Below are positions 2,626-44,906 of a stretch of 64,000 nt of DNA, one piece after another. Position 1 is the stretch's first letter, and the number at the start of each line of letters is the position of its first letter. The stretch comes from Gonapodya prolifera JEL478. Lineage: Eukaryota; Monoblepharomycota; Monoblepharidomycetes; Monoblepharidales; Gonapodyaceae. The stretch is taken from NCBI GenBank assembly GCA_001574975.1, contig KQ965802.1, positions 45,985 to 109,984 of the forward strand. The letters run 5' to 3'. Under the pieces are notes generated by a model that searched no databases, had not been told where the DNA came from, and saw only the letters and a program-made list of their open reading frames with translations. A program made the translations under genes and the position numbers.

Positions 2626-3027
2626 CCCTTTAATCCCCAGTAGGCGTCACTGTGCTGCAATCTGCAATGTGTTCGCGTTCCTCACACTCCTTGCCATGAT
2701 CCACACCGAAAAGAGTGACAACAAAGATTATTGGCACTTGAACGTGCAGTGGCAGGGACCCTGCACCACCCATTCCTCCAAAGCCACCACAGAGATTCTC
2801 ATCCATCAGCAGCACCGGCTGCCCCATCGCACTTCCCTAAGACATCGAATACCACTCCACGCATTTCAGTAGAAGCGATCGCCCGATTTCACTTGCCGCC
2901 CCAAAAGCGCCACCACACGCACCGCACTCTTGCCCGCCATCACGAAGCAGCCGCCGCGCAGAGGTCATTTTTCGGTCCAATCGAAATCACTCGCGTCTGA
3001 TTTGCGCCATTCGGGACGACTCTGACG
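2626..3027. other. Intergenic/promoter region between actin fragment and Ki-67-like gene
   Basis: Open frames here are short and resemble no family. The 5' flank of the gene starting at 3028 must lie here. No clear TATA element was seen. Confidence 0.4.
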
Positions 3028-6000
3028 ATGCCGGCCGCTCTTGGATACTTTCGCTTCAAGACCTCGTCAGGCGCCGCAAGGCACTGGCCAATCACCAAAA
3101 CTAAAGTCACGATCGGGCGTGCTGTCGAAGGAAGTAAGAAGGAGAAGGCGGACCTTCGGTGCGTTCGATGGGAGGCGTGGGCGACGTGATTCTTCAGAAC
3201 AAGGGAAGGTTGCGGAATACCGACGTGCAGGGCATCGATGGAGGTTATTCCCAAGAGAAACTTCACTCAAACGCATAGGAGGGGTCGGAACTTGGTGGTT
3301 TTTACTGGAACGGTTATTGCGTTTACATTAGTAACTCATTTCGTGACTACACCCCACTCACCTCATCCCACAGCATCCACGCACACTACATGAGCGGCGT
3401 CCACGCCATTCTAACCTACGAGGATGGTCGCGTACGTTTCTTTATTCTTTCCCTCACGCTCCTTCACTGTTTCACCATTCCGCTCTTTCAAGTTTTACAT
3501 CGAAGACGTCTCGATTAACGGAACCACCGTCAACGGAACCTTTCTTCACCGCCAAAAGATTCCACTTGACGAGGGAGACGCCGTCTCGTTCAAGTCGAAA
3601 TTTCCGCAGGGAACCGGTGAGAAAGGTTTTGCTCCTTCGTTGATATTCTAAACTGATGAAATGAATAACATTTCAGACACGTACTTGTCAATCTTTTTGA
3701 CGCTCAAGGATCCTGTAAGTTTCCTCTTACAGCGTTCCTGTAAACTGTAAACCGAGCTCATCGTTCCCGTTGTCAGTACGCTGATCCATCACCTACGTAT
3801 ACACCCGAAACACTTCCACCTCCCAACACGACAGCGCAGGACAACACACTCCCCGAAGCCGCGCCCTCTCTCACTCCTGCTCCTGCTTTTGCTCCCGTCG
3901 CCGGACACTCCACGCAACCTGGGCCGGTATCCGCTATTCCACCCCCCACACCCATTACTGTACCAACCGCCGTCTCCTCCACCCTCCCTCCCCCATCCAC
4001 CCCGCGCTCTCGGGGCGGGAAACTGTCCCGCGACCCGCACATGCTCTCGCAACTCGACACCTTTGTCGTTTCTGCCAGGGACGTGAAAACTCCCGGACCC
4101 GCCAAGGCACCCACGGAGAGAACAGCGGGTCGGACACCGGCGACGGATGGGGCAAGGAGAGTCGGATCCAGACTGCCCGTTGCTCTTCCCTTGCCTGCGT
4201 TTGGAGGGGATAAGCCCGCGGCGGGAGGGAGTGCGCAGCCTTCGAATGGGAAGCAGGTGGGGAAGGATTTGGAAAGTGCGGCCCCGCCCTCGACGACGGA
4301 GGCAACGACGGTCGCGGATACGACAGACGAGAGTCCCTCGGAACCAAACGACGAGACTGTGAAGGACACACCCGAGGAGACCGTTGCTGAGCCGGATAGT
4401 GAAGACCTTGGCTCCTCCGTCGATGGTCCAAGCATACCAAAGACACCGGGATCGGAGCCCGCCGATCGCAGTGACCTCATATCTGCCGCTCTTTGGTCTC
4501 CTGATGGTGTCGACCCGCCGCGGACGATTGTTACCGTGGAAGCGTCCACTACAACTACAGTCATAAAAGAAACGAAGCGCGAGGTGAGTCTATCCGTCCG
4601 CCTTTCGTTGAAACCTTGATTTGACCGTTAATATTGCTGAACTCGTCAACAGCTTCGATTGGACCCCTCGCTACAAGCTACTGCGCATCTCCTGCGAACG
4701 CCGTCTCGCAAGTCGGTGACATTTGGACCGGTCTTGAGTCCCGAGGTTTGTGTTCTTCGAACCAACGTTGCTACCGCACTCTCTTCTACCATGACATCCA
4801 TCCGCTCATCAGCTTTTCGACAAAGAACAGCCCGCCGCGACGCCACTCAAAAAGGGTCGTGCTCCCGAGGCCACACCTGCCGGGACCCGCACTTCGGACA
4901 CACCCAAAAAGCCCTTGCTCAAGAGACTTCTTGACGAGACTGATCGTGAAAGCTCCGTCGGGTCGTCTCAAGGTGCTTTCAGCGGTGACCAGGAGAAGGC
5001 CGCCGACGACGTGGCTGACTTGATGATGGAGGAGCCACTGTTGGGAGACTCTGGAAGTGAACGAGGCGTACACTCGGTTGAGAGACGGAGCGAGAGGTCG
5101 AATGAGATCACCACACCGTCTCGACAGGATAGGGCCCGCTCGAGATCTCCCGGACCCAGCGGTAGCAGCGGCAAGTCGCCACTTCAGAAAGTTGTCGCAT
5201 GGTTGGGATTCGGGGGTTGGAAACATGAGGACAAGGAAGATGCCGAGAGCGGCGATTTTGGGGAAGGTGCCACTACAGTGGAAGCGGAGGCAGCCGCCGT
5301 CTCGGAAGAGCCGCAAGAGACACCTTTACAGGAAGGTGATGAGAAGACCCCCGAGGAATCAGCTGGTGGATCTACGAGCCAGGAGTGGGATCTTCAGGAA
5401 GTTCCTCAAAGCGACGATTCAGACGTCCCGACCTCGGTTGATTTCGGCTCCAATAAACAAAGCGAGCCATCTCACTCCAGGAATTCTTCCGCTACTTCGG
5501 TTGGTGCCGATCAAACGTCAGCCATCGCCAATACCGACGCTCCGTGAGTACTCTCCGAGTTGTTTTGCAATCTTATCCCATCCACACCTCAAATATTTCC
5601 ATACAGTGAACCTGCAGATGCGTCGTCGTCTTCAGACGATCGTCGCAAAAGCATTCCCCACATGTCCAACGTTATCAATGACATTCTGCACTCCCCTACG
5701 CCACTTGCAATCCAAGATTTCCGCGTGGGGGGACGATACAGCACCGGAAGTATTCCTGTTCACCTTCCAGAGGCGGAAAAAGTGCGGGGAAGGATGTCCA
5801 TTGCAGTCGCGGGAGTTGGAAAAACGTTGGAGGGAGATGCGGAAGAAGAGACAGCCAGCCGGGGATCCGTGCCGCCACAGTCTGCTGACGGTTCAGTGGC
5901 AGAAGATGGGTTGGATGGGGACAACGATGCTGACAGAGACGAAGACCATGCGAAGCCATCAAGCCCTTCCTCACCTGGAGCTCCCGCTGATGAATTGCTA

Positions 6001-9000
6001 AATTCCGCGATCGCCAGCGACTCGAATACCGAAAGCGCTCCCGTGATCACAGAACCCGTGCTCACCCCTAGACGCAAATCCGGTCGATCGACGAGAGGAA
6101 CGAGTCCTGCACCTCCGCAGGTACCACCGGATGCCGAAGAATCAGAAGTCGTTCCCAGTAACGAGGTGGACGGTGCTGTTGTCTCCATCGAACCAGAAGC
6201 GCCTATTGTCGATGAAGTCATCACTCCAGTCTCGCTGGAGCAGGGCGAGGATGAGAAGGAGAATGTTATCGATGCCGAGAAAGAGCGATCGAAGCACGAA
6301 ATCCCTGCCGGAAAGACAAAACCAGGTCGCAGAGCCACTCTGACAGCGCCAAAAGGAAGCGGAAAACAGGTCCAAACTGGTCATGGTCGTCGATCAATGC
6401 CAGCGAAACACATCAATGTTCCTGATGCTCCAAAACCAGCTGAGCTTGAGTCTCCAACACCCGCTGCTGCTCTCGGTGACGAGTTGATTGGGGAGGGCAG
6501 CGCAGAAGAGCCCACTGACGACGTTTCAGGGACACAACCAGCAACTGGTTTGATTATTCCTCAGGAGCCACCAACGACCGACGCAGAGGCAGAAGGCTCT
6601 GGCTCAGTGCAGGAGACAAATGTCAAAACACCAAAGGGTCGGGGACGCCGGCACACTGTTCACGCCAACGCCGACTCGCGCCCGCAGGCTGCCCAAAAAG
6701 GTCGACGTAAGACGACAGCTACCGCGACAGCCAGCACTGCAGACGTTTTGCCCGAATCTATTTCTCCTTCAGCAACCCTGGAAGGGGAAAATGTGGAACC
6801 CTCAAAAGTTGACACTGATCAAGAAATCGCAGCAGTGCCAGCGGAGGCAACAGATCGTCCCATCGTCGATGCTCCAGGCGATTCTACACCGTTGAGCGAG
6901 GTCGCTCAAACCGCAGCAGTTCTCGAAGATGTACCTGCTCCCCCAACTGCACCAGGAACTCGCCGGCGGCACACTGTGCAAACGGATCCTGCCAATCAGC
7001 CAGCTCCGGAACTGAAGGGGCGGCGGAAAACAACGACCGCTACCTCACGCGCGCCAAAGGCTTCAGTGGAGGAGACTCTACCAGAATCTGGCGAAGTAGA
7101 AGCCACAGCGGAGTCTGTTTCTGTGGAGCAATCCGCTCCTGAAGAAGCTGCACCAGTGAATGGGCGTCGTAAAACAGCAACTGGAGCGGTGCGAACGCCT
7201 AAAGCTTCACTCGAAGAGATTCAGCCAACCTCAACAGAAGAGAAAGACGGAAAAGAGCCGGAAGTCGCCCCAGCTCCCCTTGAGCTTGCCGTTCCCACCA
7301 AAGGACGGCGCAAAACAGCAACAGGACGAGCCGCTAAGGCGTCAGTCGAAGACGTCCAGGCAACTTCAGCTGAAAATATCGACGTCGCCTCTAAATCAGA
7401 TGAGGTTGGAGAGCCAGCTGAGGTGCTTGAATCCACCGTTTCAGAGTCTTCCGCACCAGGCAAAGGACCAGCGAAAGGACGGCGCAAAACAGCAACTGGG
7501 CGAGCCGCTAAGGCATCAGTTGACGAGGTGCAGCCAACTGTGTCTGAAAATGTTGACGCGGTTGCTGAACCAGACCAGGTTGGAGAACCAGCTGAGGTCC
7601 CGCAGACCACTGTTGCGGAGTCTTCACCGTCAGAAGTTGCTGGCGCCCCCTCGTCCACTCCATCTGGATCCGCTGACCATGTACCTGAAGCTCCTCGACC
7701 AGCAGACCCTTCAGAGTCTGCCGCCGTACCTGCAATTTACGACGCAACGAGGGGTAAACGCCGACATACAGTACATGCGAACGCCGCGGCTCCTTCTCAG
7801 CCAGCACCTAGAGGACGAAGAAAAACCACTGCAGCTGCTGCAGAGGGCGTGGACGAGCCTCAACCGGCAGTGGTACCGCCTGAGTCCAAGACTCTTGGCA
7901 AGCGCAAACTTGAAGTTGAAGTTGTCGTGGAGACACCGGGCAAACCAGAAGGTCCGAAGACCAAGAAGGCGCGAAAGAGTATCGCAGCAAAGGTGGCCGA
8001 AAAGGTTGAAGAGGTTTTTATTGAGGAACCGGAACCTTTGCCGAGACGACGAGGCGCTGCGGGTAAAGCTGGTGCCGCCGAGCCTGTGGAACAACCTGCA
8101 AAGACCACTCGGAAGCGCAAAGCTCCTGTGGAGGAATCAGAAGAGGAGTCTGCGGTGGAAGCAGTACCATCAAAACCGGCACCCAGAAGCCGTAAAAGCA
8201 CCAAGCTGGACACCCCTGAGACCGTGGACAACAGCAGTGGCGCTGGCCGCTCAACGGGAAACTCGTCGACCACTGGTGCAAGAGGTAGCGGACGATCGTT
8301 GAAGGGCAAGGAGGCTGCAGTTGTCGTTGAGAAGGTTCCCAGTGTGAAACGAGGCCGGAGTAAGGCTCCTGCGCAGAAGGCTGAACAGGCGGAAGAAGAG
8401 GCTGCCACGTCGGAGGTGGATATTGCTAAGCCAGTGGCAAGACGTGGGCGTCAGACGAAAGCCGAGCCCGTTGTGGAAGAAAAGCCCGTTGCCGCAGTAG
8501 CACCAGCGACAAAGACGACAAGAGGAAAGAAAGCTAAGGGATCAGCGAGCGCTCCAGCAGCCGTGGAAGAACGCAAGCCAACAGTGCGGGGGAAGCGGGG
8601 CAAGGAGGCGCCAGAGGTGGAGTCGGCTCCCGCGAAACTTGAGGGAAATCAGAAAGCTACGTTGAAGAAGGGAGGAGCGAAAGGGGCCAAAGATGAGTCG
8701 AAGGAAGTTCCTCCATCAGGTAGCGTCGTCTCCTCGAGCAGAGCCGCAATTGCAGCCCCAGGAAAAGGACGAGTTCGGGCTAAGCAAGAGCTTGAGGCGG
8801 AGGAACCGGCTGTTTTCCCAGCAAGAGGAAGAAGTCGCGCTAAGCAAGAGCCCGAGGTGGAGCAACCAGCTGACGTGTCCGAAGTGGTTGCACAAAAGGG
8901 GCGGAGCGCTGCCAAGGGAAAAGCAGTCGTGCGCGATGCTGCGCCTGTGGTCGAGGAAGCACCACCTGCAACAAAAGGCAGAGGGGCGAAGGCCAAAGTT

Positions 9001-9615
9001 TCAAAGGATGAACCGGCGCCGGCGGCATCAGCAGTTGCAAGCAAGACAGGGAAGGTGACCCAGGCTTCCGTAAAGGCTCCGGCCAAGACCACCGACATTA
9101 TCGTGGAGATCATCTCGGATTCGCGACGTGGCACGGGGACAGTGGAGGAGCCTGCTCCTGCACCAAAGAAAGGCAAGCGTGCGGCACCCAAACAAGATGT
9201 CGAGGCAGTTGCAGCGCCAGCGTCGAAGAAGCGACGGGTTGGGTCTGCGAAGGACTCCGTCGCAGTGGAGGCGACGAAACCTGCACCTGCGCCTGCTCGA
9301 TCGCGGGCGACGGTGGCGAAAGTTGGACCGTCAAACGCGGAGCCGGTAGTTGAGAAGAAGGCTGCCGTGCGGGTTAAAAACGCTGCAGCTGTGGAAGCAG
9401 TCGAGGTGCCGGAGAAACCGAAGAAGGCCGCCGCTGGTGCACGTATCGTGGCACGGAAGGCGCCGACAGTGACTTCGCGAGCATCTGCTTCTCGATCGGC
9501 GACTCGTGGGTCTTCGGCCGGGCGGGTTTCTCGAACAGGCGTGAAGACAACAAAGGCCGCGGCTGCAGGTGCAGGTGCGAAGGTTGCGGCGGGTCGTGCC
9601 ACGCGTAAGAGGTAG
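3028..9615 (+). CDS. Ki-67-like FHA protein with Ki-67/RepoMan-type PP1-docking motif
   Basis: The model has eight exons: 3028-3158, 3374-3431, 3493-3616, 3677-3714, 3777-4583, 4653-4745, 4813-5543 and 5607-9615. All phases agree and give 1,996 residues. Residues 1 to about 110 form an FHA domain with the expected landmarks: TIGRA (GR at 30-31), SGVHA (S51/H54) and INGTTVNG (71-78). FHA domains bind phosphothreonine peptides. Residues 405-432 carry a PP1-docking motif like that of Ki-67 and RepoMan/CDCA2. From about residue 700 there are degenerate basic repeats, and the C-terminus is a very Lys/Arg/Ala/Ser-rich, histone-tail-like segment ending ATRKR, suited to DNA or chromatin binding. The order FHA, PP1 motif, repeats, basic C-terminus is that of Ki-67, the mitotic chromosome-surface protein. 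No leucine/arginine (LR) domain like the vertebrate one is obvious. Function is inferred from the architecture. Confidence 0.85.
4707..4857 (+). other. PP1-docking motif (KiR-SLiM type) split by intron 4746-4812
   Basis: Residues 405-417, ending exon 6, read RKSVTFGPVLSPE. Residues 418-432, opening exon 7, read LFDKEQPAATPLKKG. Human Ki-67 and RepoMan have, as I recall them, R-V-(S/T)-F-G followed by L-x-P-E-(L/V)-F-D, then P-x-x-T-P-L-(K/R)-(K/R)-G at the same spacing. The first part is an RVxF-class PP1 hook and the second contacts the PP1 gamma/alpha surface. T409 sits at the x of the hook (an Aurora-type site in the animal proteins), and S415-P and T427-P-x-K are CDK-type sites. Confidence 0.85.
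6620..7840 (+). repeat. Degenerate coding repeats in the Ki-67-like protein (RRHTVHA and GRRKTAT modules)
   Basis: Two alternating short modules recur in frame. One reads RRHTVHANA or RRHTVQTDP, near 6645, 6960 and 7750. The other reads GRRKT followed by a Thr/Ala run and often APKASVEE or AAKASVEE, near 6700, 7018, 7161, 7302, 7475 and 7810. Spacing is irregular (about 140-180 nt in the best-ordered part). Each module holds an R-R-x-T basophilic kinase consensus. Confidence 0.8.
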
Positions 9616-10365
9616 CGGTGGAGATATTTTGGGATGAGCTGAACGTTTCGAAGGGAGCTTTTTGCTGTTGGAAATGTACAGGTTAGGCTTGTTTGTGCAA
9701 TGCATTAGCATTTTCTATATATCGAAGCCACTTATCTCCATGTACTGTGGGGTGTTGGCCTAACGTTAACTCGAGATGCAATGAACGGACATACCTCGGC
9801 GGCAGAATTTCGATCACATTTCCGAACATCGCGCTCTCGTGGTCACCGCAAGCGCTGCACTCCTAATGCCTTGGAAATAAAGGCGCAACTGTCATTTCGG
9901 ACAGCGAGAGCCTTCGTCGCGGAATGAGTGATGTGTGGATTTACGCAACATGAGCCGAAGCAGCACAAGTATTGTCGGCATAGATATACCCAGGCAAAAG
10001 GTTGAGTCTTGCCGCCCAATACTCTGCTCGTGTGAATCGACGATTCCATCGCGAAAATGGTGGCGGACTCTGTTGGCGAGCTCACACTCTTGTCGGTTGG
10101 AAATACAGAACAGGACAAGACGACCACCCCAGTGGACCCGAAAGAGCTGTCCACGACTTCATCACCGATAATAGACGCACTGTAGGAAGCACGGGTGCCT
10201 CTCTGCCTTCCGAAGCGCCCAACGTGGAACTGTTTCTACACACATATTGCAATGGAAGGACATCAGTTTCACAGTCGGAGCTTCGGCGAGCGAGTGATCA
10301 AAGGATGTCGAAGCTGGAGTACAAAATCGTAAACAACTTCTATCCTCAGTGTCTGGATCGCTAAA
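9616..10365. other. Intergenic, no gene recognised
   Basis: Contains the 3' flank of the Ki-67-like gene. Short open frames on both strands resemble nothing known. Confidence 0.4.
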
Positions 10366-11840
10366 GTCTGGTCAAATGTTTGCTGTCATGGGTGGATCAG
10401 GCTCAGATGTTCGTATCCATGGCATATCACAATTATTTTCTTAGCGTGAATAAATACGAAATCAAACTGGAAAACCGCCCCTCTACTTACGTCTTCAGCT
10501 TGTCTATCCGACTGCAGCAAAACCTGAGTTGGGCTCCCCAGTGACGCCGGAAACGGAAGCTTCTGTCAGTTGCAGTAAGTGTGTGTGACGTGCACTGAGG
10601 TGTTAACATATAAATCTGGTGTCTGATAGATGGAGCTCTTGACAAATCCACAAGTTCTTTTCATTGACGAAGTATGTGCTATTACCCAATAGTAATGGGC
10701 CACGTACATTAACAAAGCATTTTTGATTAGCCACCCTCAGGCCTCGACGCATTCGCTGCACTCACCACCATCGACTACCTCCGCAAAATGACGAAATCCG
10801 GGAACCAATATCGCTCGTGGCCATCCACCAGCCGCGGGAGAACATTCTCCGTCTCTTCGACAAATTCCTCCTCATCTCTCGCGGGAAAGTTGTGTTCTCG
10901 GGCACGCTCAAGGAAGCCTACAGCCACTCCACGCGGTGTCAACATTGCCGATTTCTGGCTCGATGTGATAGCGAGTGATCATAGGACGGATGAGCTGGCC
11001 GTGAGAGTGTAAGGAGGGTTGAGAGGCTGCATTCGCGGTGGTTAGAGAAAGCAAGGACGTTGATTGAGTACCAGGGTAAGTCCTTCAAATCACTGCGAAT
11101 CTGTTTCCAAGGTTGCTCTACCGTCACCATCGTTTGCCTTACTCTCTATTGAACGCATTGCTAGGGAAGTCCTCGGTAGGATACGGCACGCAGGTTTGGT
11201 TCTTCCTCATCACCTTGAGCTCTTCGAACTCGCTCACATCAGCTTCGTGATGCTCGCGCGCAGTACCTGGACGCTCATTGCACGAGTTATCGCAACGCTC
11301 ATCATGGGCGCTGTCCTTTCGTTGCTGTTTTGGAGGCTCGATGAGACGAGCGAGTGAGGGTTGACGTCTTTCGTGGGTGGAGTAACAGCCAACATTTCGT
11401 TGTGTGGGGATGTTGATTGATCTGATCTGATCTGGGATCCGGTGGTGGCTTTTGCAGTTTTATTTCCTTACGTTGTTTCGCATGGGACAAGGGTACTCGG
11501 CTGTGACACAACCTATGACTACTTCCTTCTGAATCGGCCGCTGATATTGCGAGAGCGCGGTATGTGAAAGCTTTGCATTAAACGCCGCCTTTCTAATGCA
11601 TTAAACGTCGGTGTGACCTCACCCATTTTTTTAGCCGCGACAATGTATCGCGCCTCGTCGGTCTTCCTGGCACGACTCAGCGTTCTCTTCCCATTCTAAT
11701 CTTTCTTTTGCGCAATTGACTGCTTCATTTTCTGGTTAACGGTCGGACTGAACAGCCCATGCCAGTTCATATTGCGGTTTGGCGTAGATTTCTGATGTAT
11801 CACAACTGGAACGTTGCTACCTGTTCCTCCCGTTCCCGTT
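10366..11840 (+). pseudogene. ABCG (White-type) transporter pseudogene
   Basis: Fragments appear in the correct ABCG order but in shifting frames. SGQMFAVMGGSGS is a Walker A lead-in cut before the GKT at about 10366-10405. MELLTNPQVLFIDE is the Walker B at 10630. After an intron come SGLDAFAALTTIDYLRK, AIHQPRENILRLFDKF, LLISRGKVVFSGTL and NIADFWLDVI (10740-10975). The first membrane segment, RSTWTLIARVIATLIMGAVL, lies at 11255-11320, a NRPLILRERG block at about 11535, and MYRASSVFLARLS at 11643. The signature-motif region between Walker A and B is missing, and there are several frame changes and in-frame stops. The intact family exports lipids or drugs as half-size or full-size pumps; this copy cannot. 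Confidence 0.82.
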
Positions 11841-12289: not shown

Positions 12290-12562
12290 TCACAGATGGG
12301 CATTGTTGGCCAGGAGCTCCGCTGAAAGGGAATGACTGCCGCCCAACTTTCCCAAGAGTTTCAGGTGACAACTTGGACCACTTACAATTGGATCAAAGCT
12401 CTCACTTTGCCACCACTGGAGGAAACACGTGGGCACCCTCCAATGATCAAACCCCAGCGCAGAAAGGAAATCTTTGATTGGCTTCTGTCTGATCGCACCA
12501 GGCGCCAAGAAGACGCAGCTAGACAATTTTGGAGCTGTGGGGAGTTAAGCTCTTGCAGCAGG
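12290..12562 (+). mobile_element. Possible fragment of a transposase-type helix-turn-helix (Tc1/mariner-like)
   Basis: From 12332 the frame reads AAQLSQEFQVTTWTTYNWIK followed by a proline-rich linker, GHPPMIKPQRRKEIFDWL and EDAARQF. This has the cadence of the paired helix-turn-helix in Tc1/mariner-type transposases (A-x-x-F-x-V followed by TVYxWI, then a GRP-like hinge). No DDE/D catalytic part follows and no terminal repeats were found, so it would be a relic. A chance open frame remains possible. Confidence 0.3.
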
Positions 12563-21059: not shown

Positions 21060-22101
21060 TTGCGATCGCCGCGCTGGCAGTCATGTTTCCGGCACCAGCG
21101 CGGGCGTACTGCGACAGGAGGGATCCACTGGGCGAGACTCTCGATTTTTGGTACCGGGGCGGTGTTGTTGATCAGGACCACCACACGCTGTGTGACTTCG
21201 TCGAACACGATGACGCTGAAAAGCCCAGCGTGGCGCCGTTCTTCTAAACGAGGGTGGTGTAACAGCTATCGACCGAGACAGAGGTCTTGGTCCGCGCCCA
21301 GCCCATACCCGGCGCGTTGGCGCTCAGCTCGGAGTGCAGTTGATTTCGAGAGGGCGAAGGATGGCTGAAGGGTGAATGCCGACGAGAGTGCCATCGACGC
21401 ACGGAGGTATTTGGTCACATCCGAGATGGTGGAACGGATGCATGACTCTCCCACAAGGCGTCGTTACTGAAGATCAATGGGGCAATTGGAGTCCCTGCGG
21501 GGCCGTATCCTGTTGCGTACCTTGCCTGCTGGTCGGCATTCGTGCTACCGACGCAGACGGAGTCGCTCATCCCCAAAGGCGTGAAGATGTGGTCGGTGAA
21601 TGCTTGCGAGTATCCGCCGGTGAGGTGGCACATAAGCGCGTACCAAGGATTCCGAAGCCGTAGTTGGAGTACAAGTAAGGCCCCGGTGGCGTTGAGGTCA
21701 GAGGAGATCCTTTCAAGCTGTCCAACAGCTGCTCAACTGTGTATAGCAACCCGCCGGGATCAAGCTGGTTGTTCGGGTTGGGTGGCCAGCGTGGAAGAGT
21801 GGCTCTGTGTGTCGCAAGCATCCATAACGCGACTTGAGATACGTCCCTGGAGAGTCCCGGAGCTGTTCCCCCGGGTAGAAGGTCCGATACCGACGTATTG
21901 ACTGCGATGCTCGAGCTCCAGCGGAGCCAAAAGATTACCCGCGAACGTTTTGGTGACGGTGCCGATTTCGAATATGGTTCCGGCGGTGACGTTAGGTCCG
22001 CCCAAGCTCATCGTGCCAGCAGTGACGATGCAGGTGTCGTTGCCATCCACAATTTGGCGGGGTTTATTCGCTCTGACCGCAGCCGATGAAAGAAAGCACA
22101 T
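21060..22101 (-). pseudogene. Class C beta-lactamase-family (serine hydrolase) pseudogene
   Basis: On the minus strand: IFEIGTVTKTFAG (SxxK box), GNLLAPLELEHR, then in another frame VNTSVSDLLPGG, LATHRATLPRW and PYLYSNYGFGILG (YxN box). After another frame change come ALMCHLTGGYSQAF and FTPLGMSDSV, then DVTKYLRASMALSSAF, RAGYGLG and FDEVTQRVVVLINNT. The order fits eukaryotic and bacterial beta-lactamase-related esterases (LACTB/EstB-like). At least four frame changes occur, one between the LLA and VNT blocks where a length-matched alignment argues for an indel rather than an intron. The catalytic serine of SxxK reads Thr (GTVTK). The copy is therefore dead on both counts. Confidence 0.8.
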
Positions 22102-22941: not shown

Positions 22942-24336
22942 CTAAGGAAGGCCATTTCCACGCCCACTCGTGTCAAGTATCACTGTTCCACCTTTGAGCT
23001 CGCCTGCTGCCACCAACTCGCCCAATTGCTCTTTCCAGGACTCATGGACAATATCGATGTTGAAGGTGCCCTCACTCGGTGCATCAATGCTGACTTCAAC
23101 TACAGCTCTCTTCGTAATCTCCACTAAGGCACGCCAAAGTTTGCGACCTGTGGCACGGGATATATCCGCACGTGGTGGCCCAGCTCCGGTGATCGTGATT
23201 ATCACTCGTCGGGTTGCCTGGGGCAGAGAATTGGAGAACTGGCGGAAGAGGTCACGCAGGTCCGACAAAGAGGTGAACCAAAGGTGGAATAAGTCCAGCG
23301 TTGTGAGGATGGTGTGGAGTGAAGTGGGCAAGGAACCAATCACGTCGCGGTGACGGTCTGATAGCTGGAACATTCCGTGACAGAGAGGAATCGTTCCAAA
23401 CTCTTCAAGGTTCCGAAAAAGGCGTGTAACATTATACTTGGCCTGGTCACCAGCGATTGTGATGAATGTGGCCGTCCTTTCGCGTACTGATGGTGTGAGA
23501 ATGGCCGCAATAGTGCCGCTACTCAACCACGTGCGGCGGAACCGGAAAAGATTTGATGGCGAAAGTCGAACCTCATCATGTGGTGCTATGAGTTGCTTTG
23601 CATTCGGAAAGGGTAGCAGTTGTAAGGTAAAGGGTACAATGGCACGCCAGAGGTCTTCCTCAGCCCACGTTGACACCAAGGTCATCTCTCTGACAGCTGG
23701 TAGGATTGCACCGCCAAATGGTGGTGTTGATTTCGACCATAAAATGTACGAGGCTGCATTAAACTGGATGTGTGGAATGGAAAGGTGCCGGGAGAGGTCA
23801 AGAGCCTTCTCCAATGAGGCGATTTTTGTTCGTAGCACATTCTCTCCCATGCTGTCCATGAATTGAAACGTAGCTACCGAGAAGTAGAAGTTCATGGCAC
23901 CAGGAACGATGACGGGAATCCGGGCTCGGATGCCGTTTTTAATTTTGCGCACAGCCTCGGCTGGCTCAAACGGCTCCAGTGCAAAAAGCTCATGTCCGTT
24001 GACATTGACGTCGGTAGTCATTGTCACGAGGACCGTTCTGGGCGACGGGGTATACAAAGTTGCCTTTTCAAATTCGGGAAGGACACGGGTGTTTTCCACA
24101 CCGAAAACCACGGATGGTACCGTGTCGGCGGTTTTCGATGTCTGATTGTCGCAAAGCTTTGGTCCCAGGAACCACAACGTCAGGTGAGCTTTTAGCGCGA
24201 GGGTGCAGATGACGGTTTGAAGGGCAGAGTTCCATTGACGGGAGACTAGCGAAGCCGCGGCGAGCGAGCGAGGTGAAAAGGTCAACTCGATGATGCGAGC
24301 AAGGATTTCTGTGGGGATCGACGGCGCCGTTGTCAT
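22942..24336 (-). CDS. F-box protein, array copy 1
   Basis: Single exon, 464 residues. The start is MTTAPSIPTEILARIIELTF, and the F-box continues RSLAAASLVSRQWNSALQTV at about residues 5-45. F-box proteins use this segment to bind Skp1 and act as substrate receptors of SCF ubiquitin ligases. The remaining 400 residues show no LRR, WD40 or kelch repeats. They share family blocks with the other copies: PHIQFNAASYILWSKSTPP, FPNAKQLIAPHDEV, a LPTSLHTI stretch and ATGRKLWRALVEITKRAVVE. It is the most downstream copy of the array and lies tail-on to the small open frame at 22386. Its 5' flank matches that of copy 2. Confidence 0.85.
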   Translation of the reverse strand: MTTAPSIPTEILARIIELTFSPRSLAAASLVSRQWNSALQTVICTLALKAHLTLWFLGPKLCDNQTSKTADTVPSVVFGVENTRVLPEFEKATLYTPSPRTVLVTMTTDVNVNGHELFALEPFEPAEAVRKIKNGIRARIPVIVPGAMNFYFSVATFQFMDSMGENVLRTKIASLEKALDLSRHLSIPHIQFNAASYILWSKSTPPFGGAILPAVREMTLVSTWAEEDLWRAIVPFTLQLLPFPNAKQLIAPHDEVRLSPSNLFRFRRTWLSSGTIAAILTPSVRERTATFITIAGDQAKYNVTRLFRNLEEFGTIPLCHGMFQLSDRHRDVIGSLPTSLHTILTTLDLFHLWFTSLSDLRDLFRQFSNSLPQATRRVIITITGAGPPRADISRATGRKLWRALVEITKRAVVEVSIDAPSEGTFNIDIVHESWKEQLGELVAAGELKGGTVILDTSGRGNGLP

Positions 24337-26672: not shown

Positions 26673-28109
26673 CTAACAAAACCCACAGTCATGCTTGCTC
26701 CTATCAAGCATCACCGTTCCATACTTGATCACCCCCGCTGCAACTAGTTCGTCTAACTGCTCTTTCCAACAAACATGGAGTCGCGCCTCTTCCACCCAGT
26801 CTCCTGCCCGCTCAATCCTGACTTCAGTGGTGACCCTCTTCGCAATCTCCACCATAGCAAGCCACAGCTTGCGGCCTGTTAGACGGACGTCCTCCTGCGG
26901 TGGACCGGCTGCAGTGCGCACCGTGAGCACCAAGCGTTGTGTCCCTGGAGGCAGCAAGGTTGAAAATTGGGTGAAGAGGTCCGACAGAGAAAACGCAGCC
27001 GCATAAAAGAGATGCATAATGTGGAGCGTAGCGTGGAGGGTGTGGACTGTGGCGGGGAGAGAGGAGAGCAAGGTGCGATGCGGGTCCGAGTACTTCCACA
27101 GTCCAAGGGCCAGGGGGATCGTTCCAAACACTTCAAGGTTAGGTAGGAGGCTGTTAACAGGAAATTGGACTTGGTTGTTGTCGGCTGAGATGAAGGTGGT
27201 CGTCTTTTGGCGTACTGAGGGTGTGAGTGGGTCCAAGATGGCGTTTGTGTCCAAGTACGAGCGGAGGAACAGGAAGTGGTTTGCTGGTGATATTTGAACC
27301 TCAATATGAGGCGCTGTGAGTTGCTTTGCGTTAGGGAAGGACAGCCTTTGTGAAGTGAATGCTGAGATAGCATGTGCCATTTCTCTATCATTCCATTTTG
27401 AGTTGATGTCCCATTGGTTGTCGCTGCCCACTAAAGACACCTGAGCGACCGATGGAAGGAGAGCACCACGGCGTGGAGGTGTTGATACGTACAACAAAAT
27501 GTAAGAAATGCGATCCAACTGAATGTGTGGAATGCACAGGTTGCGGCAGAGGTCGAGAGCCGTTTCCAGTGCTGCAATGTTTTTGGGCAGCGCGTCAGAC
27601 GAGAAGATAATGTCATTTCCACTATCGTTGTTCATGAACTGAAACGTAGCCACAGAGAAGCAGATGTTCAAGCCACTAGGAATGCGGTCTGGAAGCGCCG
27701 CCCGGATTCTGTCCGCCAAAGAGCTCGCAACCTCTGTTGGATCGAACAAACTCAACGCAGAAAGCTGACGGCAATCAATAGTGACTTCGGAAGCCATCAC
27801 CACGAGTAGGACTCTCGGCGGTAGAGTTGACAGAGTTTCCCCCCCAAATTCGGGAAGGATAGGACTGTTTTCTACACCGAGGACCCATGACGGAGATGCA
27901 TTGACACGTTGCGATGACTGATTCGTGCTATGCTCTGGACCCAGGAATAGTAGCTTCAAGTACACCTTAATTGCGAGCGTTGCGAGGACAGTTTGAGCGG
28001 CAGAGTTCCATTGGCGGGAGACCAAGGAAGCCGCGGCGAGCGTAGAGGGCGAGGACAACTCGATGATGTGAGCAAGAATTTCCGTTGGTAAGGATCGCAT
28101 GGCTGCCAT
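26673..28109 (-). CDS. F-box protein, array copy 3
   Basis: Single exon, 478 residues from MAAMRSLPTEILAHIIELSS. F-box at residues 6-45 (TLAAASLVSRQWNSAAQTVL). The body carries the family blocks IPHIQLDRISYILLYVSTPP, FPNAKQLTAPHIEVQISPAN, SLPATVHTLHATLHI, DLFTQFSTLLPPGTQRLVLT and LTGRKLWLAMVEIAKRV. It ends ...KHDCGFC. No membrane segment or signal peptide is seen. The 563 nt to copy 4's end on one side, and 671 nt to copy 2's start on the other, hold no gene. Confidence 0.85.
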   Translation of the reverse strand: MAAMRSLPTEILAHIIELSSPSTLAAASLVSRQWNSAAQTVLATLAIKVYLKLLFLGPEHSTNQSSQRVNASPSWVLGVENSPILPEFGGETLSTLPPRVLLVVMASEVTIDCRQLSALSLFDPTEVASSLADRIRAALPDRIPSGLNICFSVATFQFMNNDSGNDIIFSSDALPKNIAALETALDLCRNLCIPHIQLDRISYILLYVSTPPRRGALLPSVAQVSLVGSDNQWDINSKWNDREMAHAISAFTSQRLSFPNAKQLTAPHIEVQISPANHFLFLRSYLDTNAILDPLTPSVRQKTTTFISADNNQVQFPVNSLLPNLEVFGTIPLALGLWKYSDPHRTLLSSLPATVHTLHATLHIMHLFYAAAFSLSDLFTQFSTLLPPGTQRLVLTVRTAAGPPQEDVRLTGRKLWLAMVEIAKRVTTEVRIERAGDWVEEARLHVCWKEQLDELVAAGVIKYGTVMLDRSKHDCGFC

Positions 28110-28366
28110 TTGGGACGGAAAGCTGGCTGGCCTGTGTAATGCAATTTAGCCGAACGTAAATAAAGCTTGTTCAACATGCCCCATTGTCATGAAGCTTCGA
28201 TGCTTCCGGCATTTTGTTTCCTTCAACTCTTGAAAATAAATCAATGCATATTTGGCAACATGGAAAGTTCTATACTTTCACAGCGAGGTATCGCAGTGTT
28301 CGGACTATGAGATTGAGCGCCGACCGCGCCTTTGCTCAAACAGTTACAAAACAGAGAAACCATTTC

Positions 28367-29827
28367 CTAAGCAAAGTCATAGTCACGCTTGGGCCTATCA
28401 AGTATCACCGACCCACTCTTGAGCACCTCTGCTGCCACCAGCTCATTCAATTGCTTTTTCCAAGATGCGTGGAGTTCCACCTCTTCCAACCGGTCACCAG
28501 CGCCACGCTCAAGCCTTACTTCAACAACAACCCTCTTTGCAATCTCCACCAGGGCGCACAAAAGTTTGCGACCGGTCGGACGCATGTTTTCCTGTCGTGG
28601 GCCGGCTCCAGTGATGGTGAGAATCAAGCGTCGGGTCCCTGGAGGTAACATCGTGGAGAACTGGGTGAAGAGGTCAAGCAGCGGGACCGTCGTGGCATGG
28701 TGAAGGTCTGCTAAGTGCATTTTGGCGTGGAGGGTGTGAACTGAGGTAGGCAGTGCGGAGAGCAGGCCAATATAGGGCTGGTCTGGTGTCCATGTCATTC
28801 CGAGCTCCAGGGATATTGTTCCAAACTCTTCAAGTTTGGGGGGAAGGACATCCACAGGAAATTGAGCCATGTCGATATGATCTGAGACGAAGGTCGTCGT
28901 GTTTTTACGTGGCCAGGGATGAAGTAGGTTCAAGATTTTGGTAGCGGTGGTGCGGTTCAAGCGTAAGAACCGGAGGTTTTTGCATGGTGTTATGTGAAGT
29001 TCGCCGTAAGGTGACAAGAGACGCTTCGTGTTGGGGAAAGGGAACACTTCCAAAGTAAAAAGGGAGATGGCAAGCGATATTTCTCCATCACCCCAAATCG
29101 ATGCCACATCCAGCTGTTGGTCCTTGCATGAGACAAAAGACACCTCCGTGACTGCTGGAAGGAGGTCAATACCGCGGAACGGAGGGGTGGATTTGGACCA
29201 CGAAAGATAAGACAACCGGTCGAACTGAATGTGGGGAACCCGTAGGAGGCGACAGAGGTCCAGCGCCTTATGCAACGCGGCGTTGTTCGCCTGCAGCACT
29301 TCATCCAAGAGTGCATCATCATTTTCGGGCCCACTGCTCATAACCTGGAACATAACAGCCGAGAGGCAGATGTTCAAGGCATCAGGTCCAGAAAGGTGTG
29401 AGCGGGGCAGCGACAATCGAATGCCTTCCGATAAGGTCCATACAGCCACTGATGGTTCTAGGAGCCCCAGCGCAGTAAACGCGCGACAATCGATGATGAC
29501 GTCGGCAGCCATCGCCATGAGGACTGCTCTGGGTGACGGTATCGACAGAACTTCCCGTTCAAAGTCGGGGAGGAACCGGGTACTTTGAATGCCGAGGAGC
29601 CACGATGGTGATGCATCGGTACGTTGCAATGTATGATCGTTGGAGGGACGGTCAGGTCTCAGAAAGTGAAGCTTCAAACGAGCTCTCAGACCGAGAGTTG
29701 GAATCAGGGTTTGGGCGGCACGATTCCATGACCAGGAGACCAATGACGCCGCCGCGAGTGAGGACGGCAAAGATAGCTCGAGGATGCGTGCAAGAATTTC
29801 CGTGGGGACGGATGGTGTCGTTGCCAT
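28367..29827 (-). CDS. F-box protein, array copy 4
   Basis: Single exon. I choose the ATG at 29827 (MATTPSVPTEILARILELSL, 486 residues) because it aligns with the starts of the other copies; an in-frame ATG 75 nt upstream exists. F-box at about residues 5-45 (SSLAAASLVSWSWNRAAQTL). The body has VPHIQFDRLSYLSWSKSTPP, FPNTKRLLSPYGELHITPCK, SALPTSVHTLHAKMHL, MRPTGRKLLCALVEIAKRVV and LNELVAAEVLKSGSVILDRP. It resembles copies 6, 7 and 9 more than copies 1, 3 and 5 in the PYGEL block. Confidence 0.85.
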   Translation of the reverse strand: MATTPSVPTEILARILELSLPSSLAAASLVSWSWNRAAQTLIPTLGLRARLKLHFLRPDRPSNDHTLQRTDASPSWLLGIQSTRFLPDFEREVLSIPSPRAVLMAMAADVIIDCRAFTALGLLEPSVAVWTLSEGIRLSLPRSHLSGPDALNICLSAVMFQVMSSGPENDDALLDEVLQANNAALHKALDLCRLLRVPHIQFDRLSYLSWSKSTPPFRGIDLLPAVTEVSFVSCKDQQLDVASIWGDGEISLAISLFTLEVFPFPNTKRLLSPYGELHITPCKNLRFLRLNRTTATKILNLLHPWPRKNTTTFVSDHIDMAQFPVDVLPPKLEEFGTISLELGMTWTPDQPYIGLLSALPTSVHTLHAKMHLADLHHATTVPLLDLFTQFSTMLPPGTRRLILTITGAGPRQENMRPTGRKLLCALVEIAKRVVVEVRLERGAGDRLEEVELHASWKKQLNELVAAEVLKSGSVILDRPKRDYDFA

Positions 29828-31998
29828 TGGGTCCCTTCTTTCCTTGTGCAACATGTCACCAATTTTAGCCGATAGATGTCGGCGTTGCAACTGCAATTCC
29901 AACGTTTTCCTTTTATCTAAGCTTCAAAGCTCTCTCAGGTCGTACAAAAAAGAGATCGCAAAATTTAAAGTCCATGCGCGCAGATTCGCAGAATTTCATA
30001 GCAATAATAATCACAAGAAAAAGGTTCGGTTTCCCATCCGTTGGGAACGGAATGGGAATCGGCATTTTCCATCCCGTTTCCCATGCGATTACCATCCCCC
30101 GGAAGACGCGCGTTTTACACGGGCGGTAAACGGGGATGGGAATCCGTTTTGTGCCACCTATTAGGAACTTTCGTTTCGCGGATAGAAAATCCCACTGCAA
30201 AATCCCATTGCGAATTACCATCGTAATTTTATATATTCTGTGCATCTGCTAAATACATGCAAAGACGCTTCTAAAGGGGTGAGAGAAAAAACACAGACGC
30301 GTCCACAGGACTGCCTGAAGCGAAAGGAGCGATGCAGAGCTGTTCAAATAAAGCACGGCGAGTTTGTTGAAAATGGAAATTTTAGAGAGGAAACTCACCG
30401 AAACAAGATCTTTCCAGTTGTCCCCGCTGACCAACAGTATAAAGCAGACCAACGATGCACTCACGTGGCATAAGAGATACGAAAAGAGAGAATAAGATCG
30501 TCTAAACGCAAAGCGGCATGAAAAAGCTCAGAGAAAACAATTTTGTCACGTTTACAAAACGAGCTTGCATACGGCGGAATACTCTCACCTGAATGCGTCT
30601 CTCACTGGGAATGGCGCGGCGTTTTCAGAGCAATAGAGTGCTTCCTGGTGGAGAGAGCACTTCATTGGGGCTATTGAGCGTTCCAATTCTCAGTACAGGG
30701 TTCGGGCGAATCTTCTCCGGTGTGGCCGCAAAATGCCCTTGCACTTCGATTGCTGAGGGCGAAAACGGCGATTGTCGGTGAAAAGCGTCCAGCACAAGAG
30801 TCACTGCCGAGCAAGCCCCCCCAACTTACTAATTTTTTCAGAGAGAAGGCCATTCCCGAACGCAGAGGAAGACGCTGAACGTTTGCCGTTGGAGTGACAT
30901 CCAGGGGCAATGAATGGACACGAGAAGACTCAGCGTTTTCGATTCGCATCCAGCGATGTCGTTGGCTGACGCCGCAAGTCATGCGCAGAGTTTGGCATCG
31001 ATTGATGCGAAGAGACGCGAAGTCTGCAGAAAAGGAAGGGCGGTGGCGATAAGATGGACAGGTCCAGTCCTGCGGACGTCCCTGGACTTCACCAAAACCT
31101 GACCAAGTCAAAGTTATTCATCTGAAACGTTTGTCAATAACGTATCGTTCTTTAGTTCCACTTCTTGATAATGCAAACAATCTACAACCTTTCATGGAAT
31201 TGACGGGGAACACGAGAAGTAAATATGCAGGAAGGGAGTAGCATTACAAGAGGGATTCAAGCCGTGAAGAATTCATTGATTTGACGTCACTTCGAGTTCC
31301 TGCATGTTCATATAAAAGACTTGTTGAGACGAGCTCCATTGGCAGCTGTGCTGCGGTTTTTACTGGTGGATACAACGGCCCGTCCACCTCCTGTCGAAAA
31401 TAGTTATCAGCAACATATAGTTCAATAAATAATTCAGCGTCTTGGTACATAAAAGCTTGATACAGCTTGTCTACATTGTTTTCATGGAATCAAAGGGAGC
31501 CCGAGACAATCGGTGTAAATGATCACAGCACCAGCACTCGCCTTTGCCAAGTGCTCGAACTGAAGTGAATTACTGTTAACTTACCCAAGTACTGTTTCGA
31601 ACGACACATCAAGGAATGGGAAGCGGGATGATATCCACGATGACCCACGATGGATGGGAACGCGAGTGGTGACCATCTCTGGTCGTCATGGGAATGGGAT
31701 GGAAATCGACATGAATACCACCGTGGTTCAACCAGGAAAACTGGGGCGGTTAGTTTTAGGGCGTTCCCTTCACCTAATGGCCGCCCTCAAAAAATCCACG
31801 GCTTGGAAATGCAATGAGAAGTCCGGATTACCACGGTGGCAACGATCGCTATTCCCAGGATGGACCAAAAACATCGTGGAATAACAATGGGATGCAAAGA
31901 TGGGAATCCGTCAAAACTTTCCTGTGTATACCATCTTTAGCCTCTGGGGCTCTACAACCTCCGTTGCTCAGAGCTCCAAGGAAATAAAAGACATAGCA
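29828..31998. other. Long intergenic gap within the F-box array
   Basis: No gene recognised on either strand. It holds two patches rich in GGGAATGGGAT-like words, at 30020-30160 and 31610-31910, and some TATA-like sequence. Open frames such as 30671-31111 (minus) and 31244-31450 (minus) look random. Confidence 0.45.
30031..30058. repeat. Near-perfect inverted repeat (hairpin) of TTCCCATCCGTT / AACGGAATGGGAA
   Basis: The two arms of 12-13 nt face each other across GGG with one base missing in one arm. Further copies of GATGGGAATCCGT occur at about 30141 and 31899. Confidence 0.6.
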
Positions 31999-33417
31999 CT
32001 AAGAAAATCCATAGTCAAGCTTGCTCCTGTCAAATATCACCGTTCCGCGCTTGATCACCTCTTCGGCGACCAGCTCATCCAATTGCTCGTTCCAGCAAAC
32101 AAGGAGTCCGGCTTTTTCCACCCAGTCTCCATCCCGCTTAATCCTGACTTCAACAACAACCCGCTTCGCAATCTCCACCATAGCACGCCACAGCTTGCGG
32201 CCTGTGGGACATGTGTCCTCCGGAGGTGGGCCAGATGCAGTGCGCACGGTGAGGAACAACCGTTGTGTTGCCGTTGGCAGCAACGTGGAGAACTGGGTGA
32301 ACATGTCGAGAAGGGAGAACGAGGCGGCATAATGAAGGTACGTTAACTCGAGGGTTGCGTGGAGTGTGTGGAGTGTGGCAGGCAGGGTGGAGAGCAGGTC
32401 GCGGTAGGGTGTGTCCGAGGTCCACATTCCAAGCTGCAGGAGGATCGTCCCAAACACTTCAAGATTCGGGAAAGTACTCATGAGCGAATAGTGGGTAATG
32501 TCCGTGTCAAATGAGATGAAGATTGTCGTCTTTTGGCGTACTGGTTGTGTTAGAATATCAAGGCAGGAACGTCTGGCCGTCAAGTGCAAGCGTCGGAACC
32601 AGACGTGGTTTGATGGTGACAACTGAACCTCGAATTCAAATGCTGAGAGCCGCTTTGCGTTAGGAAAGGGAAGCCTTTGTGAAGTGAAAGCGGTGATCGC
32701 AAGGGCGATATCGGTATCCGACCATACTGAGGCGACGTTTTGCGCCCGTCGGTCTTTGTGCGTCCGTAAAGAAATATTGGTAACTGCGGGCAGGAAAGCG
32801 CCACGGTACGGTGGCGTTAGTTCGGACCATAGAGCGTAAATGATGCGATCGAACTGAATGTGGGGAACCTGAAGGAGCCGGCACAGGTCGAGAGCCTTCT
32901 CCAATGCTACACTGTTTGCGGGTCGCCTTTGTAGCGGGAGGGAATTGTTCGTGAATTGAAACGCAGCCAACGAAAGGCAGATGGCGAAGCCTGTCGGAAC
33001 ACGAGTTCGGATTCTGTCCGTCAAAGAGCTCCAAGCCTCTGTCGCATCGAGCGCCCCCAGCGCAGAAAGCTGGAGGCAATCAATGGTAACTTCGGCATCC
33101 ATCGCCACGAGGAGGGCTCTCGGCTGCGGGGTCGACATACCAGTTCCTCGTTCGAACTCTGGTAGGCACCGGATGTTTTGAACGCCGAGGAGCCAGGATG
33201 GAGATGCATCGACCTGTTGCGATGTTTGATTCCCGCGACGCTGTTGGTGCTCAAATCGCAGCTTCAGCTGAGCTTTGAGGGCGAGTGTCGGTAGGAGTGT
33301 TTGGGCTGCCGAGTTCCATTGGCGGGAGACCAAGGAAGCCGCGGCGAGCGAAGAAGGCGAGGATAATTCGATGATGCGAGCGAGAAGTTCTGTGGGGATG
33401 GACGGCACGGTTGCCAT
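31999..33417 (-). CDS. F-box protein, array copy 5
   Basis: Single exon, 472 residues from the ATG at 33417 (MATVPSIPTELLARIIELSS), chosen to align with its paralogues. F-box SSLAAASLVSRQWNSAAQTL. Family blocks: VPHIQFDRIIYALWSELTPP, FPNAKRLSAFEFEVQLSPSN, TLPATLHTLHATLELTYLHY, CPTGRKLWRAMVEIAKRVVV and LDELVAEEVIKRGTVIFDRS. The frame stays open 57 nt upstream to another ATG, and that extension reads HPTEVLARIESNP, a decayed duplicate of the F-box start. Confidence 0.85.
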   Translation of the reverse strand: MATVPSIPTELLARIIELSSPSSLAAASLVSRQWNSAAQTLLPTLALKAQLKLRFEHQQRRGNQTSQQVDASPSWLLGVQNIRCLPEFERGTGMSTPQPRALLVAMDAEVTIDCLQLSALGALDATEAWSSLTDRIRTRVPTGFAICLSLAAFQFTNNSLPLQRRPANSVALEKALDLCRLLQVPHIQFDRIIYALWSELTPPYRGAFLPAVTNISLRTHKDRRAQNVASVWSDTDIALAITAFTSQRLPFPNAKRLSAFEFEVQLSPSNHVWFRRLHLTARRSCLDILTQPVRQKTTIFISFDTDITHYSLMSTFPNLEVFGTILLQLGMWTSDTPYRDLLSTLPATLHTLHATLELTYLHYAASFSLLDMFTQFSTLLPTATQRLFLTVRTASGPPPEDTCPTGRKLWRAMVEIAKRVVVEVRIKRDGDWVEKAGLLVCWNEQLDELVAEEVIKRGTVIFDRSKLDYGFS

Positions 33418-33735
33418 TGGGTTGGATTCGATGCGTGCAAGAACTTCTGTGGGATGGCACGGTTGCCACCGCACTTCAATCAGGATATGAAATGCTCAGC
33501 ACTGGTGCCTTTACCAAAGCTAAAATAATGTAAATGGCTCGTTTCGTGAAAGACGGCGGCCATATCACTTTCAACTCTGGCATTCTGGTAAAGTTTCGAA
33601 GCTAAAAGTGTTTACATAATAGCTACATTACTATTCAAGCAACATGATGCAATAAATATTTGATATATATGCACAGGGAGCCATTGCGGCGTGCTGTCGC
33701 TGGACTCTGAGACTGGACTTCTTTTCAGCCTTTGC

Positions 33736-35202: not shown

Positions 35203-35420
35203 TTGGGATGAATGACTTTTGCCACGGTTGCTCTTGAGGAACTAGGCACCTATTGTTGTTTTAAGTATTTTTGTGAAAGACGACAGTGATCCGACTGGCG
35301 AAATATCCAAACTGTCAGCTACAGATATTACAACAAAGCATTTTGGGCAACAAATGTTCCAAAAAGTCATTTTCACAGCGAGTCATCATAAAACTTTTGG
35401 AGACAGCTTCTCTCCCTTTA

Positions 35421-38402: not shown

Positions 38403-38826
38403 TCTCGGTTACCTGGCCCAGACTCAGGCACTCAGAGAATTGACCCGTTCCAGGCAATGCCAACGCCAGAGAGTCTTTCACGCACCGATTGCTCGACGCA
38501 TCTCCGTCGCTGCCGCAGTCTCATGCTAATCTGCTTCCTGCGCGTGACCGGCGCCCGTAACATTCATCGAATGGATTATTTAATTACTGCTTGTTGTGCC
38601 ATTTTATGTCATTGCCTCGTCTGTCTTTTCACAACGTTGTACTCCGTAAATATTCCAACAACTGAAACGGTGAAGGAGAATACTTTTACATTCGTTATCA
38701 TAGCCTTCACTCGTCCCTCTCTGCTCATAAAAAGTAACCTAAAATACTCACATCTATCCTTTTCTATAGAGTCTCTATAACCTCTATTGCATCCATGTCC
38801 CGCAGGATCTGACCGAAGGGTATGTC
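38403..38826. other. Intergenic
   Basis: Between F-box copy 8 and the collagen-like gene. AT-rich in part; no gene recognised. Confidence 0.4.
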
Positions 38827-44782: not shown

Positions 44783-44906
44783 AAGCGGGTATGTATATTC
44801 CGGAAACACTTTCAGGTGAAGCTTCACCATTGACAACTTTGCACGCGTTAGCTATCCCAGTTTCATCCATAATATTCGCCCGCCAGTGGGTATGGAGCAG
44901 TTGCAC

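Follow-up and report, generated by a model that had tools for sequence, protein, structure and literature searches.

The window analysed here, a 64-kb stretch of DNA, carries on its forward strand a predicted gene of eight exons (Table 1), whose product probably belongs to the kind of proteins that combine an FHA domain with a PP1_bind motif, animal Ki-67 among them, and that resemble fungal bridgin, and would act in mitosis through the mechanism of tethering and protein phosphatase 1 (PP1) docking proposed below. Judged from its sequence, the protein is likely a PP1-recruiting scaffold of mitotic chromosomes or kinetochores. The assignment is based on an N-terminal FHA domain, a downstream PP1_bind motif, an acidic middle part (isoelectric point, pI, 4.55), alternating charge blocks and a basic C-terminus (pI 10.25).

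The PP1-docking block was identified at the junction of exons 6 and 7. The joined exon 6/7 peptide was matched by Pfam family PF15276 (PP1_bind, the Ki-67/RepoMan PP1-docking family) with an E-value of 7.5e-13 and 48.9 bits, the cut-off being 27, while exon 6 alone reached 0.056 and exon 7 alone 3.8e-4, so that the cut-off was passed only by the joined peptide. Among the 21 in-frame GT-AG choices for intron 6, the one used in the gene model had the highest score against RepoMan (102), and its score against Ki-67 (86) was the highest among the six of these choices that were listed; splice and motif are therefore supported together. When the PP1 region was compared with the PDB sequences, all three matches obtained at E up to 10 were RepoMan (1.8e-7 and 2.9e-7) or Ki-67 (7e-5). 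In local alignment LRTPSRKSVTFGPVLSPELFDKEQPAATPLKKGRAP was identical to the human RepoMan peptide at 21 of 36 residues, and the local scores of the PP1 region against RepoMan and Ki-67 compare with maxima of only 45 and 44, respectively, in 2000 shuffles of the window peptide. A chance RVxF motif was rejected on the basis of the joined-peptide match and of these scores far above the shuffles. Convergence of the PP1 motif, which had been raised as an alternative in the initial annotation of this region, is likewise unlikely, because a match of 36 residues with 21 identities far exceeds a bare RVxF. The block had been placed at residues 405-432; its presence stands, but with the whole KiR stretch it extends over residues 405-435, of which residues 419-435 match a relaxed KiR pattern of our own. 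It reads as a near-complete RVxF-PhiPhi-KiR block for PP1. A comparison of the 64-residue peptide of the PP1 region with viral contigs gave 22 pattern matches and no confirmed relatives, a result that is uninformative for a eukaryotic protein.

The eight predicted exons form a single frame, which encodes 1996 residues and ends with a stop at 9615. All seven introns are of the GT-AG type, with a length of 215 nucleotides (nt) for intron 1 and of 60-69 nt for the other six; such short introns have a fungal appearance. Reading through introns 1, 3, 4, 5 or 7 leads to an in-frame stop; introns 2 and 6 contain no such stop, but reading through them shifts the frame. Exon 8 is open over 1336 codons; 500 mononucleotide shuffles gave no more than 292. 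Branch-point support is weak, as the CTRAY word was found in intron 3 only among the seven introns, and this is a weak point of the gene model. The in-phase eight-exon structure that had been annotated is borne out by these data and, as far as sequence can tell, the observation is confirmed as real, concerning a gene that is well formed and was correctly noticed.

The FHA domain was found at the extreme N-terminus, where the initial annotation had put it, with a Pfam match to PF00498 of E 9.4e-15 and 55.2 bits (cut-off 20.7). The residues G30-R31, S51xxH54 and N72-G73-T74 are kept in this domain; positions of the G-R, SxxH and N-G-T kind usually contact phosphothreonine in FHA domains. In a single pairwise comparison, the domain was 24% identical to the FHA domain of human Ki-67 over 88 residues (E 1e-6), with a local score of 64 that exceeded those of all 2000 shuffles. 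The best match in the PDB was 6c4u_B, described as ‘Forkhead-associated 1’ (3.5e-4).

The rest of the protein is characterized by its charge. The acidic middle is predicted to be disordered from its composition, and no Pfam family was matched by exon 5 or exon 8 alone at E up to 1. In the part encoded by exon 8, the motif RRx[ST] occurs 13 times (shuffled mean 1.04, maximum 5 in 2000) and RR[KH]T nine times (shuffled mean 0.04, maximum 2 in 2000 shuffles). Three of these nine basic steps are RRHT, each with an RRKT 19 residues further on (1008/1027, 1114/1133 and 1379/1398), and KAS[VL] is found 10-12 residues after four of the RRKT steps (1133, 1181, 1228 and 1286). Many of the RR[KH]T steps are separated by acidic blocks, and the charge-block variance at residues 900-1460 is above that of shuffles, with a z of 7.2. 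The DNA is also repeated within the gene (e.g., 78% between 7300-7451 and 7474-7625), which indicates that some of the duplication was fairly recent. The tandem basic modules that had been annotated are thus present, but they are not the FKELF-type repeats of Ki-67. The basic C-terminus could be verified as well: residues 1400-1996 have a pI of 10.25 and a net charge of +50, and the last 296 residues a pI of 10.88. Regarding [ST]P sites, 36 of the 38 in the protein are located at residues 118-1400, where 29.7 are expected from composition, and the region is not clearly enriched, since 324 of 3000 shuffles were as high. In the basic tail (residues 1401-1996) two such sites were found against 7.4 expected, a number as low in 35 of 3000 shuffles; mitotic phosphorylation by cyclin-dependent kinases (CDK) would therefore, judging from their consensus, largely spare the tail.

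Three known proteins are relevant for comparison. The window protein resembles bridgin of Cryptococcus neoformans (Bgi1, CNAG_01903) in having an N-terminal FHA domain, an acidic middle, repeats, a basic C-terminus and a putative PP1 site. The pI of the acidic middle is 4.65 in bridgin and 4.55 in the window protein, that of the basic C-terminus 11.20 and 10.25-10.88, and the length 1295 and 1996 residues, respectively. The FHA domain and middle of bridgin have been reported to bring it to the kinetochore, while its basic domain attaches to chromatin by charge and can be exchanged for the basic region of Ki67 (PMC7794384). The two differ in their PP1 site, which in bridgin is located at residues 161-164 and has been termed “unconventional putative” (PMC7794384), whereas the window protein has the near-complete Ki-67/RepoMan block. 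Animal Ki-67 (MKI67), for which an alignment reaching as far as Hydra and Trichoplax has been published (Booth et al. 2014, PMC4032110), also starts with an FHA domain at the extreme N-terminus, followed by an RVxF-PhiPhi-KiR block, by repeats that lie within a single giant exon and by a basic tail; unlike Ki-67, the window protein lacks FKELF repeats and an LR-type tail, and its FHA domain shows only the above-mentioned identity. Of the PDB sequences, that of RepoMan (CDCA2) matched the PP1 block best, but the window protein additionally carries an FHA domain, and the described similarity of RepoMan to Ki-67 is confined to the PP1-docking region (PMC5005033).

Several observations weigh against the assignment proposed here. 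The window protein was likened to bridgin by comparison with its published description. The Ki-67 FHA domain was absent from the 17 PDB matches that the window FHA domain produced at E up to 10, whereas the Ki-67 FHA domain used as query recovered both Ki-67 entries. Because of this, the domain is not shown to be that of Ki-67 itself; by sequence it appears to be a domain of the right kind at the right place, and not a specifically Ki-67-like one. In the docking block, FDKEQPAATPLKKGRAP departs at three positions (L to Q, N to A and T/S to A) from the strict KiR pattern FDxxLP(P/A)N(T/S)PL(R/K)(R/K)Gx(T/S)P given in PMC5005033; the Ki-67 peptide in the PDB likewise has an A at the last of these positions. 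Finally, no exact FKELF motif was found in the 1996 residues, and of the three LR dipeptides in the whole protein (at residues 43, 387 and 400) none is located in the tail. The Ki-67-like reading given in the initial annotation is partly supported: the FHA domain combined with the Ki-67/RepoMan PP1 block is well supported, whereas FKELF-type repeats and an LR-type tail are not.

A narrower interpretation is that the gene is a strict bridgin orthologue, the product of which would serve as a linker at the kinetochore, brought there by KMN proteins, and would not coat whole chromosome arms. We regard this as a real possibility, although a little short of an even chance: the layout and charges agree with those of Cryptococcus bridgin, including the repeat-bearing middle and the basic tail, and a 2022 review reported bridgin also in other fungal phyla and in Amoebozoa (PMC9252888), but a 2025 paper called bridgin basidiomycete-specific (PMC11774493). 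It is doubtful that the protein is instead a surfactant of the Ki-67 type, i.e. a charge-asymmetric, extended molecule that coats mitotic chromosomes and keeps them separate. The FHA domain, PP1 block, alternating charge blocks and basic tail are all compatible with such a function, and charge-block behaviour of Ki-67 has been reported in a review. On the other hand, the protein has 1996 residues compared to 3256 in human Ki-67, and FKELF repeats and an LR-type tail were not found in it; moreover, most fungi are described as having closed mitosis, so that an anti-clumping coat would be less clearly needed.

Two further explanations concern the domain combination itself. NIPP1 (PPP1R8) has an N-terminal FHA domain and an RVTF motif, and the window protein, with an FHA domain and an RVxF motif, could be a nuclear PP1 regulator of splicing or chromatin and not of mitosis; the RVTF peptide of NIPP1 is present in a PDB chain. 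NIPP1 identity was rejected, and is hardly credible, given that the PP1 region scored 31 against the NIPP1 peptide (24 of its 45 letters being confirmed by the PDB chain) and 102 against RepoMan, and that the PP1-binding chain of NIPP1, which is in the PDB set, was not matched by the PP1 region at E up to 10. NIPP1 was also missing from the 17 PDB matches of the FHA domain, the presence of a NIPP1 FHA chain in that set being unchecked. If the gene model had fused two adjoining genes, a short one for the FHA domain and another for PP1 docking, this would fit the fact that the FHA domain is over by exon 4 and that low-complexity sequence starts in exon 5. Such a fusion is very unlikely, as one frame is kept across seven introns, as exon 4, when read on, meets a stop in intron 4 and would leave a bare FHA protein of ~128 residues, and as the order of FHA domain, acidic middle with PP1 site and basic tail is that of Ki-67 and bridgin.

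For a protein of the FHA-plus-PP1_bind kind, as we assign it, the following mechanism can be proposed. The FHA domain and acidic middle would tether the protein in mitosis to phosphorylated partners, which may be KMN proteins of the kinetochore, as in the case of bridgin, or proteins of the chromosome periphery, as in the case of Ki-67, while the basic tail would bind DNA without sequence preference. PP1 would dock once the activity of Aurora B falls, and the kinase together with the docked phosphatase would set the charge of the protein and reverse the surrounding mitotic phosphorylation at anaphase. This control of charge is proposed because RKSV at residues 405-408 and the RR[KH]T ladder presumably fit the consensus of basophilic kinases such as Aurora. 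Residue T409 occupies the x position of RVxF; in Ki-67 and RepoMan, PP1 docks through the RVxF-PhiPhi-KiR block and docking is inhibited when Aurora B phosphorylates this position (PMC5005033). Speculatively, and we consider it rather unlikely, the window protein may preserve an ancestral form shared by Ki-67 and bridgin that works as a self-contained switch of charge in mitosis. The Aurora-type RR[KH]T ladder and CDK-type sites outside the basic tail would be phosphorylated early in mitosis, and PP1 bound to the same chain would reset them at anaphase, so that attachment to chromosomes or kinetochores and the behaviour of chromatin would change together.

Table 1. Positions in the window of the predicted gene, of its parts and of example frames from a neighbouring cluster.
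Feature	Position	Strand	Remarks
Whole gene, predicted	3028..9615	+	eight exons, 1996-residue Ki-67/bridgin-like protein
Predicted exons	3028-3158, 3374-3431, 3493-3616, 3677-3714, 3777-4583, 4653-4745, 4813-5543, 5607-9615	+	exons 1 to 8
FHA domain, residues 27-96	3106..3591 (introns included)	+	exons 1-3, Pfam PF00498
Acidic low-complexity middle, residues 118-1000	3777..6624 (introns included)	+	pI 4.55, net charge -64
RVxF part of PP1-docking block, RKSVTFGPVLSPE, residues 405-417	4707..4745	+	end of exon 6
Intron 6	4746..4812	+	67 nt, phase 0, interrupts docking block; first of 21 in-frame GT-AG choices
PhiPhi/KiR part of PP1-docking block, LFDKEQPAATPLKKGRAP, residues 418-435	4813..4866	+	start of exon 7
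Repeat region, residues 1008-1401	6646..7827	+	acidic blocks alternate with nine basic RR[KH]T steps
Basic C-terminal region, residues ~1401-1996	7825..9612	+	pI 10.25
Example frames of the cluster	22942-24336, 26673-28145, 28367-29923, 31999-33495, 33736-35241, 37449-38408, 43313-44851	-	

The neighbourhood of the gene was surveyed with Pfam (E up to 0.001). Outside 2900-9700, 128 open frames with a minimum length of 115 residues start; 95 of these were scanned, and nine families were identified. Upstream of the gene, the C-terminal portion of a DHR-2 exchange factor of the DOCK family (DOCK2/5-like) was found at 1-663 on the + strand (DHR-2 1.7e-16, DOCK2 6.4e-24). Downstream, 10727-11354 may perhaps represent a decayed or multi-exon transporter: a weak match to an ABC-2 membrane domain, below the cut-off, was obtained at 11064-11354 (+; 0.0057), and letters resembling an ABC transporter were noticed by eye at 10727-10975, where no Pfam match was present. 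A helix-turn-helix, transposase-like piece was also noticed by eye at 12326-12562 (+), where Pfam gave nothing at E up to 0.01. A piece of the Pfam Beta-lactamase family was located at 21570-22007 on the - strand (1.8e-7); esterase-like members of this family occur in eukaryotes. The region 22942-45994 contains, on the - strand, a cluster of long, similar frames with a common N-terminus like SIPTEILARIIELSSPxSLAAASLVSRQWN (Table 1), which looks like a local expansion of a gene family; F-box-like Pfam matches were obtained for ten of the 95 scanned frames, and such a match was confirmed for 26673-28145. Further downstream, a protein kinase piece (53019-53471, +; 3.1e-12) and a MAT1-like CDK-activating kinase assembly factor (55919-56695, +; Pfam 6e-9) were identified, as well as a tetratricopeptide repeat (TPR) protein (57186-57596, -), for which TTC21 ARM (23.2 bits, cut-off 30) and TPR_12 (26.9 bits, cut-off 30.1) were both below cut-off. 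The TTC21-type match had been considered as a sign of a ciliated cell or zoospores and was dropped, because it remained under the curated cut-off in a frame that also had the sub-threshold TPR_12 match; the DOCK gene is likewise not diagnostic of the host. Searches of the whole window with Rfam (gathering threshold) and ARAGORN gave no match with either, and the number of TTYGAY words across the window was uninformative.

The relationship between bridgin and Ki-67 is already in print, and the present reading is only partly new. Bridgin was described across Basidiomycota, with homologues in the basal ascomycetes Pneumocystidales and Taphrinales and with Ki67 as the metazoan homologue, and ‘bridgin-like proteins outside fungi’ were mentioned in the same source (Sridhar et al. 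2021, PMC7794384). The order of domains had been annotated here as known mainly from animals, with bridgin omitted; in fact, a fungal counterpart with the same plan has been published (PMC7794384). The suggestion that a Ki-67-type protein predates the animal-fungal split is reasonable, but was likewise made before (PMC7794384, PMC9252888). What the window protein appears to add to bridgin is the near-complete RVxF-PhiPhi-KiR block. In the literature searched, the available text of which left most subscription papers and supplementary files outside its scope, no report was found of a complete KiR block from fungi or from any other non-animal source. Fungal proteins may already be among the members of the public PP1_bind family in Pfam.

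A protein that keeps both a phosphopeptide-reading FHA domain and a phosphatase-docking motif is in line with the published idea of a pre-animal origin. Bridgin and Ki-67 were earlier linked through a search with the FHA domain that was screened for overall layout (PMC7794384), and the window protein represents a possible bridge between the two at the level of sequence. With a holozoan host, the protein would be less remarkable. If the host is a fungus, the presence of a Ki-67/RepoMan PP1 block together with an FHA domain on one chain would extend this link to the sequence itself, and phosphatase docking of the animal type would then be older than the split between animals and fungi.

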